Source of the DNA: Pandoraea capi
GTDB taxonomy: Bacteria; Pseudomonadota; Gammaproteobacteria; Burkholderiales; Burkholderiaceae
Reading direction: 5' to 3'
Assembly (NCBI RefSeq): GCF_902459735.1
Contig: NZ_CABPRV010000001.1
Coordinates: 496,001-560,000 of the forward strand
Length of the DNA stretch: 64,000 nucleotides
This document shows positions 60,648 to 63,208 of the stretch, piece after piece. The position numbers and the translations under genes were made by a program. Numbering within the stretch: position 1 is the stretch's first letter; every line of letters begins with the position of its first letter. A model generated the notes under the pieces. That model saw nothing but the letters and a program-made list of their open reading frames with translations, searched no databases and was not told the DNA's origin.

Positions 60648-61691
60648 ATGATCGATGCTGCGCGCGTGATGCAAGCGCTGGCCGAGCGCCCCATCGCCCC
60701 CGACGCGCGCCAACGCGACGCCATCGCCATACTCGCGCGCCTCGGCGCATCCGCCAACGCGACGACCGCCACCTACGACGGCGTGTATTGCTACGGATTG
60801 CCCGGGCGCGGCAAGAGTCTGGTCGTCGATGCGGCCTTCGCCGTGGCGGCATGCGAAAAGCGCCGCGTGCACTTCCACGAATTCCTGCGCGACATCCACC
60901 GGCAGCTCGTGCGCGAACCGAAGTGCGACGACCGGCTCGCTGCGGTGGCGAATCGCTGGCTCGATGGCGTCGAACTGCTCTGCTTCGACGAATTCCACGT
61001 CCACGATATCGCCGATGCGTTCCTCATCGGCCGCTTCCTCGACATCGCGCTCGCACGCCGCGTGCGGCTGGTGCTCACGTCGAACTACGCACCACAGCAG
61101 TTGCTGCCCGACCCGGAGTTTCACGAACGCTTCGAGCCGACCATCGCGGTGATTCTGCAACGCTTCGCCATCGTCCATTTCGACGGCGCGACCGATTACC
61201 GGATGGGGGGCGATAGCGCATCGATTCCGCGCTGGATCTCGCCGTTGATCGATGCGCGCGAGACCCTGTCGGCCCGCTACGCCGAGCTGGAAGGACTGCC
61301 CCCGACCGGACCGTCGGAAGTGACGGTCGCAGGGCGCGCGCTGGCAGTTCGCAGCGCAGGAGATCGTGTGTTGTGGGCAGACTTCGACGCGCTGTGCGTA
61401 GCGCACCGCTCCCATCTCGATTACCTCGGACTGGCCGAGCGATGGCAGACGCTGATCGTCGACGCGTTGCACGTCGAGCAGCTTCGTCGACCGGACACGT
61501 TGCAGCGCTTTCTCTGGCTCGTCGATATCGCCTACGACCGGCAGCGCACGCTGCTGATCGCCTCCGATGCCCCGCTCATCCCCGCACTCGATGCGCTGAG
61601 CGACTGGCGTGACCTGTCGCGCACGATCAGCCGTCTGGCCGAGATGGGCTCGCGCGATTACGAACGCCGCACGCTCATTCGTCCTCGCTGA
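60648..61691 (+). CDS. zapE: ZapE/AFG1-like ATPase
   Basis: 347-aa P-loop ATPase of the AFG1/ZapE family. Walker A is GLPGRGKS, Walker B LLCFDEFHV; sensor region VRLVLTSNYAPQQLLPDP and the YRM motif after it are also family features. ZapE works at the FtsZ ring under stress in E. coli. GGAG lies nine bases before ATG 60648. Divergent from the typical N-terminus and not beside usual partners, so it may be an extra copy. Its end overlaps the convergent XRE gene by 17 nt. Confidence 0.85.
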   Translation: MIDAARVMQALAERPIAPDARQRDAIAILARLGASANATTATYDGVYCYGLPGRGKSLVVDAAFAVAACEKRRVHFHEFLRDIHRQLVREPKCDDRLAAVANRWLDGVELLCFDEFHVHDIADAFLIGRFLDIALARRVRLVLTSNYAPQQLLPDPEFHERFEPTIAVILQRFAIVHFDGATDYRMGGDSASIPRWISPLIDARETLSARYAELEGLPPTGPSEVTVAGRALAVRSAGDRVLWADFDALCVAHRSHLDYLGLAERWQTLIVDALHVEQLRRPDTLQRFLWLVDIAYDRQRTLLIASDAPLIPALDALSDWRDLSRTISRLAEMGSRDYERRTLIRPR

Positions 61692-61869
61692 AGATATCCT
61701 CGATGCGCAGACCGAACACGCGCGCGATGGTGAATGCCAGTGGCAGGCTCGGATCGTAGCGCTCGTTCTCGATGGCGTTGACCGTCTGACGCGAGACGCC
61801 GAGCGCTGTTCCCAGATCACTTTGCGACCAGCCGCGCGCCAGACGCAATGCCTTGATCTCGTTTTTCAT
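61675..61869 (-). CDS. Small XRE-family repressor (64 aa)
   Basis: One-domain helix-turn-helix protein: KNEIKALRLARGWSQSDLGTALGVSRQTVNAIENERYDPSLPLAFTIARVFGLRIEDIF. This is the short XRE type usually encoded beside a small membrane protein. The start ATG 61869 overlaps the stop of the membrane gene as ATGA. It probably represses its own operon by binding the two matched palindromes at 62253-62312. Confidence 0.92.
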   Translation of the reverse strand: MKNEIKALRLARGWSQSDLGTALGVSRQTVNAIENERYDPSLPLAFTIARVFGLRIEDIFSEDE

Positions 61870-62240
61870 CGATAACGTCGCGCGCAAAGGAAACCGGAGA
61901 CGACCCACAGCGTGCACATCAGCGGCCACACGACAAACAGCGACAGCTTGGGGAAACCCACGCCTTCGAGAAAACCGTAACCGAATGTGATCAGCCCCGT
62001 GCCCGCGAACGAGACGGAAAACGATTCCAGCTGAATGCGTCGCTGCAATTCGTCCATGCGACGAAGATTACGCACGATGGCCCAGCACATCGCAAAACCC
62101 GGCAACATCGGCAGCAGCGCGATCGGCACCCGGGCGCTCAGGGGAAGATCAGGCATCGCCTGCAACACGCGTATCGATCCCGCCAGCACCACCACGTAGG
62201 CGAGCAACGCTCCGCCCATCTCTTTCACATAACGCGTCAT
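61866..62240 (-). CDS. Four-helix membrane partner of the XRE repressor
   Basis: 124-aa membrane protein with about four helices (GALLAYVVVLAGSIRVLQAM, VPIALLPMLPGFAMCWAIV, FAGTGLITFGYGFLEGVGF, LSLFVVWPLMCTLWVVSGFLCA) and a basic cytosolic loop (RNLRRMDELQRRIQLES). It resembles DUF2178-like partners of short XRE regulators. GAGG lies seven bases before ATG 62240, directly against the inner operator. Function unknown; it may sense membrane state or a small molecule and relay it to the repressor. Confidence 0.8.
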   Translation of the reverse strand: MTRYVKEMGGALLAYVVVLAGSIRVLQAMPDLPLSARVPIALLPMLPGFAMCWAIVRNLRRMDELQRRIQLESFSVSFAGTGLITFGYGFLEGVGFPKLSLFVVWPLMCTLWVVSGFLCARRYR

Positions 62241-62252
62241 CGTGCATCCTCA

Positions 62253-62312
62253 TGTAAAGCATGCTTTACACGATAAGCGAAACCGATCCACGTGTAAAGT
62301 TTCTTTTACACG
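62253..62312 (-). promoter_or_regulatory. double operator and promoter of the XRE/membrane operon
   Basis: Inner site: perfect 18-bp palindrome TGTAAAGCATGCTTTACA (62253-62270). Outer site: CGTGTAAA-gtttct-TTTACACG (62291-62312). Centres are 40 bp apart, about four helix turns. On the minus strand TTTACA (62298-62293) is the -35 inside the outer site, followed by a 17-bp spacer and a -10 TATCGT (62275-62270) that touches the inner site. The inner site abuts the ribosome site. Confidence 0.85.
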
Positions 62313-62314
62313 AC

Positions 62315-63208
62315 TCAGATCACGCTCGCGATGCACTCCCGCAGCCAGCGATGCGCCGGGTCGCGATGCACGCGCTCGTGCCAGTACATCGAGATTTCGA
62401 AGCCGGGCAGATCGACCGGGGCCGCCGTGATCTGTAACGCCGGATCGTCGCGCACGAGGCGTTCCGGGGCCATGGCGACGAGATCGGTCTGCGCCAGCGC
62501 CGCGCGCAGGAACAGGAAGTGCGGCACGGAGAACACCACGCGACGTGACATGCCGAGCGCGGCCAGCGCGTCGTCGGTGCTGGCGTGAAAACCCCCGCCG
62601 TCCTGCGAGACGATCGTGTGATCGAGGCCGCAAAACTGTTTGAGCGTGGGACGCCGCGTCAACTTCGGATGCCCGCGCCGTCCGGCCAGCACGTAGCGCT
62701 CGGTGAATAGCGCCTTGCGATGCAGTGCCTCGGGCGCGTTTTCTGTCGTATGAAAAATGACGTCGACTGCGCCTTGCTCCGCCTGCCGCTCCAGCCGCGA
62801 CGGCTCAAGATCGAGCACCGCCAGACGCGCCTTTGGCGCCTGCGCCCGCAATACCTGAAGCAGCGGCAGCACGATGGTCGATTCGGTGTAATCGGTCGCG
62901 GCGATTCGCCACGTCAGCTCGGCGCTGCCCGGATCGAATGGTGCTGCGGGGGCCACCGCGCGGGAGAGCGATTCGAGCGCCTCGCGCAGCGGTTCGCGCA
63001 ACGACTCCGCGCGCGCGGTCGGTCGCATACCGCGCGGCCCCGGTAGCAGCAGCGGATCGTTCAGCAGATCCCGCAGTTTCGCCAGATGCACGCTCACCGC
63101 CGGCTGGGAGATGTGCAACCGCTCGGCAGCGCGTGTGACGTTCAGCTCCGAAAGCAGCACGTCGAGCGTGACGAGCAGATTCAGATCGATGCGGCGTAAA
63201 TTAACCAT
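62315..63208 (-). CDS. LysR family regulator
   Basis: 297-aa LysR regulator of the NodD/LinR-like branch. MVNLRRIDLNLLVTLDVLLSELNVTRAAERLHISQPAVSVHLAKLRDLLNDPLLLPGPRGM is the helix-turn-helix. The effector domain follows. The start is ATG 63208. It faces the NAD(P)H-quinone reductase across 145 bp with candidate LysR sites, the usual set-up for quinone or aromatic-stress control. Its stop lies three bases outside the outer XRE operator. Confidence 0.93.
   Translation of the reverse strand: MVNLRRIDLNLLVTLDVLLSELNVTRAAERLHISQPAVSVHLAKLRDLLNDPLLLPGPRGMRPTARAESLREPLREALESLSRAVAPAAPFDPGSAELTWRIAATDYTESTIVLPLLQVLRAQAPKARLAVLDLEPSRLERQAEQGAVDVIFHTTENAPEALHRKALFTERYVLAGRRGHPKLTRRPTLKQFCGLDHTIVSQDGGGFHASTDDALAALGMSRRVVFSVPHFLFLRAALAQTDLVAMAPERLVRDDPALQITAAPVDLPGFEISMYWHERVHRDPAHRWLRECIASVI

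Follow-up and report, generated by a model that had tools for sequence, protein, structure and literature searches.

How is a bacterial operon that encodes an XRE-type repressor together with a small membrane protein controlled, and does the membrane protein take part in this control? The question is raised by a locus in a 64,000-nucleotide stretch of the Pandoraea capi genome (contig NZ_CABPRV010000001.1, positions 496,001–560,000; the whole stretch is called the window below), where the open reading frame (ORF) of a membrane protein and that of a 64-amino-acid (aa) XRE protein overlap as ATGA on the minus strand. The first-pass annotation of this DNA had described a four-helix membrane protein coupled in this way to the XRE protein, and both the ORFs and the four predicted helices agree with that description. 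We favor, with a probability of about three in four, the reading that the pair is a self-contained, autorepressed two-gene module resembling CylR1/CylR2 of Enterococcus faecalis, in which the XRE protein would act at both of two operators and the membrane protein would probably serve as sensor or anti-repressor.

Upstream of the membrane gene are two related palindromes of the type TGTAAAG-N4-CTTTACA (Table 1). The inner one, centered at 62261.5, is a perfect 18-bp dyad, and the outer one, centered at 62301.5, departs from the pattern by one mismatch; the center-to-center distance is 40 bp, as had been stated at first pass. When up to three mismatches were allowed, these palindromes were the only matches within the 64-kb window, compared with a mean of 0.29 matches in shuffled windows, of which 2/100 contained two or more. 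Across the 31 contigs and 5.85 Mb of the genome, these two sites were the only occurrences of the strict operator TGTMAARNNNNYTTKACA, and a reversed control pattern had 0 occurrences. The genome has one strong member of the XRE family (E-value, 4e-41); the six further matches have E-values of 3.5e-5 or weaker. Two matches, one of them perfect, against 0.29 by shuffling, together with the genome-wide uniqueness of the sites and the single strong XRE of this family, make a dedicated local autoregulator the natural reading. A wider regulon of the strict operator was ruled out by the count of two genomic sites, looser sites not having been sought.

The operators are interlocked with a candidate promoter. 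The minus-strand pair TTTACA and TATCGT, separated by 17 bp, was the sole promoter-like match in 62150–62450, where shuffling gave a mean of 0.2. On this strand the elements follow one another in the order outer operator (ending in TTTACA), 17-bp spacer, TATCGT, inner operator, GAGGA and ATG, so that the right arm of the outer operator is the −35 element and the −10 element ends on the base with which the inner operator begins. This is the arrangement that the first-pass annotation had described. If transcription starts approximately 7 bp past the −10 element, the start would fall in the middle of the inner operator. The inner palindrome had also been said to abut the ribosome site; it does precede that site, with 12 bases (62241–62252), including GAGGA, separating it from the ATG. 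At the other end, the outer site starts 4 bp past the stop codon of a LysR gene.

The membrane protein was found in 5/149 related genomes and, when an alignment was used for the search, in 10/399 genomes of the order, the P. capi genome itself being counted in both. Twelve of 13 distinct Burkholderiales loci (window included) carried an operator pair at 39–41 bp (nine at 40, two at 39 and one at 41), and in all 13 the XRE gene came after the membrane gene. The first-pass annotation was to be refuted if homologous operons lacked the paired sites; this outcome did not occur, as the pair is usual in this order, the thirteenth locus having a single site. The promoter spacers, read by eye, were 16 bp in L011 (operator spacing 39) and 18 bp in L009 (operator spacing 41), indicating that operator spacing follows the promoter in these two loci. 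L011 and L014 have a third operator-like site, 95–98 bp past the inner one and near the start codon of the membrane gene.

Within the genus, the LysR neighbor was present in 26/32 genomes. The whole module (operators, membrane gene and XRE gene) lay between LysR and a gene for an AFG1-like ATPase in 3 of these 26. In 18/26 the ATPase gene followed LysR, with neither module nor palindromes, and 5/26 had neither module nor ATPase in the stretch examined. One of the 18, L311, retains between LysR and the ATPase gene (about 1425–1469) a leftover match to XRE residues 50–64, the last 15 of the protein. Judged from its sequence, this remnant is likely to be the scar of module loss by deletion.

To see the arrangement beyond Burkholderiales, a collection was scanned by DNA pattern for two operators with a free gap of 7–37 bp. 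The scan returned at least 119 stretches, which are neither complete nor a random draw, and all counts from it given below are among the matches listed. In 114/119 stretches a family XRE (E < 1e-6) was encoded on the strand read and no more than 2.5 kb downstream, a count that includes L066, whose XRE lies 50 bp past the operator start. When the strict orientation of the pattern was kept, the XRE was within 3 kb in 104/119 and within 1 kb in 102/119, compared with 1833/23800 (7.7%) within 1 kb when positions and strands were picked at random from these loci. According to the record titles, the XRE-bearing loci come from at least nine phyla (Bacillota, Pseudomonadota, Bacteroidota, Chloroflexi, Actinomycetota, Acidobacteria, Spirochaetes, Krumholzibacteriota and Zixibacteria). 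A partner with at least two hydrophobic segments, by a simple hydropathy count, was encoded between operator and XRE in 48 of the 55 loci having an ORF there; among the 54 XRE-first loci, 49 had such a partner after the XRE. Five double-operator loci had no partner that we could see.

The pattern itself fixes most operator bases, and the informative parts of these loci are the free positions and the context. Of the 114 XRE-linked loci, 101 had TTGACA as the outer right arm and 13 had TTTACA, the two forms allowed by TTKACA in the search pattern. The inner right arm was TTGACW in 28/114; where a locus matched only in reverse, the pattern left TTTACA as the sole possible inner right arm. A −10 frame (TA...T) peaked exactly 17 bp past the outer arm, occurring there in 60/114 loci, whereas any other distance between 8 and 31 bp had 0–14. 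The 104 strictly oriented XRE-linked loci had operator spacings between 26 and 54 bp, and the distribution peaked at 40, 44 and 46 bp. The inner operator started mostly at the last −10 base when the spacing was 40, 3 bp past the −10 element at 44 and 5 bp past it at 46. The exact 40-bp spacing is lineage-specific, and spacing in relatives follows promoter geometry.

XRE-anchored sampling was used to avoid selection by the operator. In 61 Bacillota genomes with 24 XREs (at E 1e-15), an operator-like pair with at most four mismatches was present within 650 bp upstream of 20/24, whereas none of 960 shuffles reached four mismatches (the best had six). Removal of the two XREs of the center genome, which had itself been reached via an operator hit, left 19/22. 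In a larger Bacillota set, a TG-type pair (score ≥22) was found for 82/125 XREs (81/123 without the center genome), and in these 82 loci the operator bases changed with residues of the recognition helix. XREs with Gly31 had at least one TGG half-site in 18/18 cases versus 3/64 with other residues, and those with Ala29 had G at half-site position 6 in 6/6 versus 1/76; the corresponding Fisher P values of 2e-15 and 2e-8 overstate the covariation because there are few independent changes on the tree. By raw count, half-sites ending in A or T accompanied Ala32 in 16/28 loci versus 3/54 for other residues. The Pseudomonadota XREs L147 and L148, which have Ala29, have half-sites changed at the same base, to G or T. 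The sequences of relatives thus point to a helix-to-base code, which we regard as tentative.

The membrane partner gave an AlphaFold model (from an alignment of 39 sequences) with a mean predicted local distance difference test score of 97; of its four long helices, the second has a break at residues 42–43. When this model was compared with the PDB by Foldseek, no match reached E ≤ 0.001 (best, 1.4). Residues Asp63-Glu64 (full-length numbering) lie at the start of the third helix in the model. By the positive-inside rule, the arginine-rich loop next to them is cytoplasmic. Among partners of 110–165 aa, the string DE[RLMFY] was present in 33/39 membrane-first proteins (the window protein not being among the 39) and in 44/45 XRE-first proteins. 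In chosen alignments, Asp and Glu were also invariant in the set of 33 XRE-first partners, and the membrane-first and XRE-first alignments paired up on Asp-Glu with 85% probability (E 6e-6); hhalign without hand selection of partners gave 79%. The chosen membrane-first alignment leaves out 4 of the 39 partners (L041, which has no DE[RLMFY] string, L045, L073 and L105) and adds L002, L004, L006 and the window protein, and the chosen XRE-first alignment omits 12 of 45. Pfam searches with ten partner proteins gave only matches below the cut-off, e.g. DUF2178 (0.0079) and DUF6442 (0.0029). The conserved Asp-Glu and the likeness to CylR1/CylR2 make it plausible, by analogy, that the membrane partner passes a signal to the XRE.

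The XRE itself is a single HTH_3 domain that matches CylR2 over residues 3–61. Its closest solved relative by sequence, over residues 2–63, is the PDB entry 9k3w, known to us by its entry name as a PbsX-family regulator. We take its recognition helix to span residues 26–34. An antitoxin of the HipB, HigA or MqsA type from a toxin-antitoxin pair was considered and rejected, the best NCBIfam score being 39.9 (Y4mF/HipB type) against a cut-off of 71.65, with no listed family at its cut-off. The PADLOC defense profiles that matched the XRE (HTH_VI, 4.6e-9; capH, 8.1e-7; RmrA, 4.6e-6; others weaker) were all confined to the helix-turn-helix, and no PADLOC profile matched the membrane protein at 0.01. 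The gene of the AFG1-like ATPase is convergent with the XRE gene, and the 3′ ends of the two share 17 bp (window 61675–61691); LysR and this ATPase are the immediate neighbors of the module.

Table 1. Coordinates of the module and its control elements in the window
Feature	Position	Strand	Basis or remark
Outer operator TGTAAAGTTTCTTTTACA (as read on +)	62293..62310	.	minus-strand right arm is the −35; conserved in homologues
−35 element TTTACA	62293..62298	-	within outer operator
−10 element TATCGT	62270..62275	-	17 bp from −35; last base common to inner operator
Inner operator TGTAAAGCATGCTTTACA, perfect palindrome	62253..62270	.	conserved in homologues
Ribosome-binding site GAGGA	62247..62251	-	read from sequence
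124-aa four-helix membrane protein (predicted)	61866..62240	-	no Pfam or NCBIfam match at E 0.1
Asp63-Glu64 codons of membrane protein	62049..62054	-	chosen set of 39 homologues: D the only invariant column, E at least 90%
64-aa XRE (HTH_3) putative repressor, CylR2-like	61675..61869	-	PF01381 E 1.1e-16; 9k3w 1.5e-20; CylR2 1utx 6e-11
Recognition helix SRQTVNAIE, residues 26–34 (limits assumed)	61768..61794	-	in relatives, operator bases covary with residues 29, 31 and 32

In some Xanthomonadales- or Massilia-type loci (L016, L017, L025, L032, L047, L072, L123 and L128), an alpha/beta-hydrolase-like gene follows the module and may be operon cargo; the call was confirmed by Pfam for L016 (TAP-like, PF08386) and L017 (Abhydrolase_6), and the others were made by eye. 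When the same pattern was applied to viral contigs, 25 of the 30 stretches obtained (L317, L319–L332, L334–L336 and L338–L344) represented one phage repeat with a spacing of 28 before small ORFs, and L333 had a looser form of it; this element looks like a phage promoter repeat unrelated to the module. In two other viral contigs, L316 and L318, a membrane-type ORF that carries the Asp-Glu motif immediately follows a double operator, and each stretch ends before any XRE is visible. The module may be carried on mobile elements.

Several observations weigh against an autorepressed, membrane-sensing module. A pair within 650 bp was seen for just 4/8 of the non-window XREs from the window's own phylum (60 genomes) and for 5/6 XREs sampled from the order (200 genomes); L146, scored as a miss in the phylum sample, has a perfect pair at −836 and −793. 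The score threshold of 22 used for the larger Bacillota set compares with null values of 20.5 at 95% and 23.0 at 99%. Of the 125 XREs in that set, 43 had no TG-type pair, comprising 28 with the usual [ST]RQ[TSA] and 15 others, one of which (L281) is merely shifted in the frame used; among the 43, L269 has 27 bp of upstream sequence and L198 contains a run of N, and L213, L270 and L285 (non-TG pairs) as well as L198 were excluded from the 82 and placed here. On a tree built without the columns concerned, residue 31 showed four changes, with one independent pair on supported branches, and residue 29 a single change. TGG half-sites occurred without Gly31 in L171, L204 and L224, and L144 has Asn31 yet TGG half-sites. 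In the pattern scan, five of the matches listed (L026, L087, L107, L120 and L125) had no family XRE in view; L107, in which the ORF directly past the operators runs off the locus and was judged by eye to be of membrane nature, was scored as a miss. No family XRE was visible in any of the 30 viral stretches (0/30). L004, which comes from a different genus of the family, has just one operator, the outer one at the −35. The DE[RLMFY] string is missing from 6/39 membrane-first partners, and what speaks for signaling by the membrane protein is conservation and analogy. More generally, the evidence is drawn from sequence, in which the sites, their position in the promoter, their conservation, their restriction to the operon's own promoter and the helix covariation in relatives can be read, and from which binding, repression, membrane-protein signaling and the signal itself are presumed.

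With these points in mind, regulation by the module may be pictured as follows. A dimer of the 64-aa XRE would bind each TGTAAAG-N4-CTTTACA operator, one dimer per site being suggested by the dyad and by relatives. The outer dimer would cover the −35 element, whose six bases are those of one operator arm, and the inner dimer would cover the end of the −10 element and the start site. RNA polymerase would be kept off, leaving the pair weakly expressed. The membrane protein, encoded on the same transcript, would sense something at the membrane and weaken the grip of the XRE on DNA, possibly through the Asp-Glu with which its third helix begins; expression would then rise. Tight self-repression had been proposed at first pass, and there is good in silico support for the part of this proposal in which the XRE represses from both palindromes, given by conservation in homologues, promoter position, uniqueness in the genome and covariation.

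All of the operator evidence would fit equally well if the operon were simply autorepressed and the membrane protein were a regulated product, such as an immunity or envelope protein, and no sensor. Of the 109 partner-bearing double-operator loci among the matches listed, 54 have the XRE gene ahead of its partner, an order that resembles a regulator followed by its target. We nevertheless consider this explanation unlikely, if one to be taken seriously, for the pair stays together in both gene orders and the Asp-Glu is mostly kept (33/39 and 44/45 partners) while the remainder of the protein diverges. In addition, CylR1, the partner of the related CylR2, has been reported to be necessary for the induction of CylR2-controlled genes (PMC3709268).

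The remaining explanations concern how the palindromes are used. Two dimers might cooperate through looping, or through a helical phasing fixed at 40 bp, to give tight repression, a possibility suggested by the usual presence of two sites and by their spacing of 39–41 bp in 12/13 Burkholderiales loci. A distance of 40 bp is short for looping by a dimer of a 64-aa protein. In relatives the spacing of 26–54 bp (104 loci, matches listed) places sites up to approximately half a helical turn apart, and the gap between the −10 element and the inner site shifts with the spacing. Looping at 40 bp, which the first-pass annotation had raised as a possibility, is not supported, because the spacing varies between lineages and is tied to the promoter, and as a general rule a fixed 40-bp loop was ruled out by the same variation. 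We therefore regard fixed looping or phasing as improbable; the data fit independent blocking of the −35 element and the start, and adjacent dimers may still bind cooperatively. Less probable still is that another regulator, such as the upstream LysR protein, reads the palindromes, or that they act as RNA hairpins or as the LysR terminator. The outer site does lie 4 bp past the LysR stop codon and the inner site before the ribosome site. The sites, however, accompany XRE genes across phyla, are absent from the 18 genomes of the genus that have LysR-AFG1 without the module, and have operator bases that track the XRE helix in relatives; moreover, the promoter-region scan found no terminator-like site, and from this promoter the outer palindrome would be untranscribed and the inner one transcribed only in part.

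A more general form of the preferred reading is that the locus belongs to an ancient pan-bacterial, one-promoter module that extends beyond lantibiotic clusters. In such a module, a CylR2-like repressor and a four-helix protein would meet via Asp-Glu, a half-site of the repressor would serve as the −35 element with a second site at the start, a single operator code would drift in step with some recognition-helix residues, spacing would be free within promoter geometry, and the two dimers would act as independent roadblocks. We hold this extension only tentatively and would bet against it as a whole, slightly more so in view of the presence of DE[RLMFY] in just 33/39 membrane-first partners.

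Among described systems, the one closest to the module is CylR1/CylR2 of E. faecalis, in which a 66-aa XRE repressor and a small membrane protein share one promoter and the repressor binds the cytolysin promoter (PMC3709268, PMC11343131). For CylR1 three transmembrane helices are predicted, and the target of the pair is a divergent lantibiotic operon (PMC3709268, PMC11343131). The window module shares with it an XRE of the same sequence family (E 6e-11; CylR2 structures 1utx, 2xiu and others) and a co-encoded small membrane protein. It differs in that its strict operators are found solely at its own promoter, in that four helices are predicted for its membrane protein versus three for CylR1, and in that it is flanked by LysR and an AFG1-like ATPase, with no lantibiotic operon as immediate neighbor (more distant genes were not searched). 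That the two modules work alike is suggested by the sequence relationship of the repressors and, for the membrane partners, by analogy. Presumably the window XRE belongs to the YozG-subfamily branch. YozG-subfamily regulators are described beside restriction-modification genes, in an XRE branch called barely characterized in the report concerned (PMC12376442). Their partners there are a methyltransferase and a nuclease, whereas the partner in the window is a membrane protein.

A large-scale census of 2025 described palindromic motifs upstream of autoregulating XRE genes, and 9 of 10 proteins tested there bound their own motif (PMC12565409). As described, it covers 200 bp before the XRE gene and would miss operators placed before a membrane gene, as in the window. 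It notes a TTAC segment common to two motif DNAs, which might be related to the window operator. Its main text contains no TTTAC or GTAAA string and neither the word "membrane" nor "tandem", and its supplementary motif table may list the operator (PMC12565409). An XRE/membrane pair is a known type, and for this operator and the twin-operator grammar we found no account in the literature searched, with the same proviso about that motif table.

Signal transfer from membrane protein to repressor in the CylR1/CylR2 type, which occurs without phosphorylation, was called not understood in a 2013 review (PMC3709268), and a 2024 preprint called the system enigmatic (PMC11343131). An operator that can be recognized from sequence, combined with a tentative helix-to-base code and a conserved Asp-Glu, makes membrane-to-repressor signaling directly and cheaply testable. 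Because the operator is recognizable, such modules can also be found and sorted in other genomes, and the recurrence of the arrangement in distant phyla brings this unexplained form of signaling within reach of experiment.

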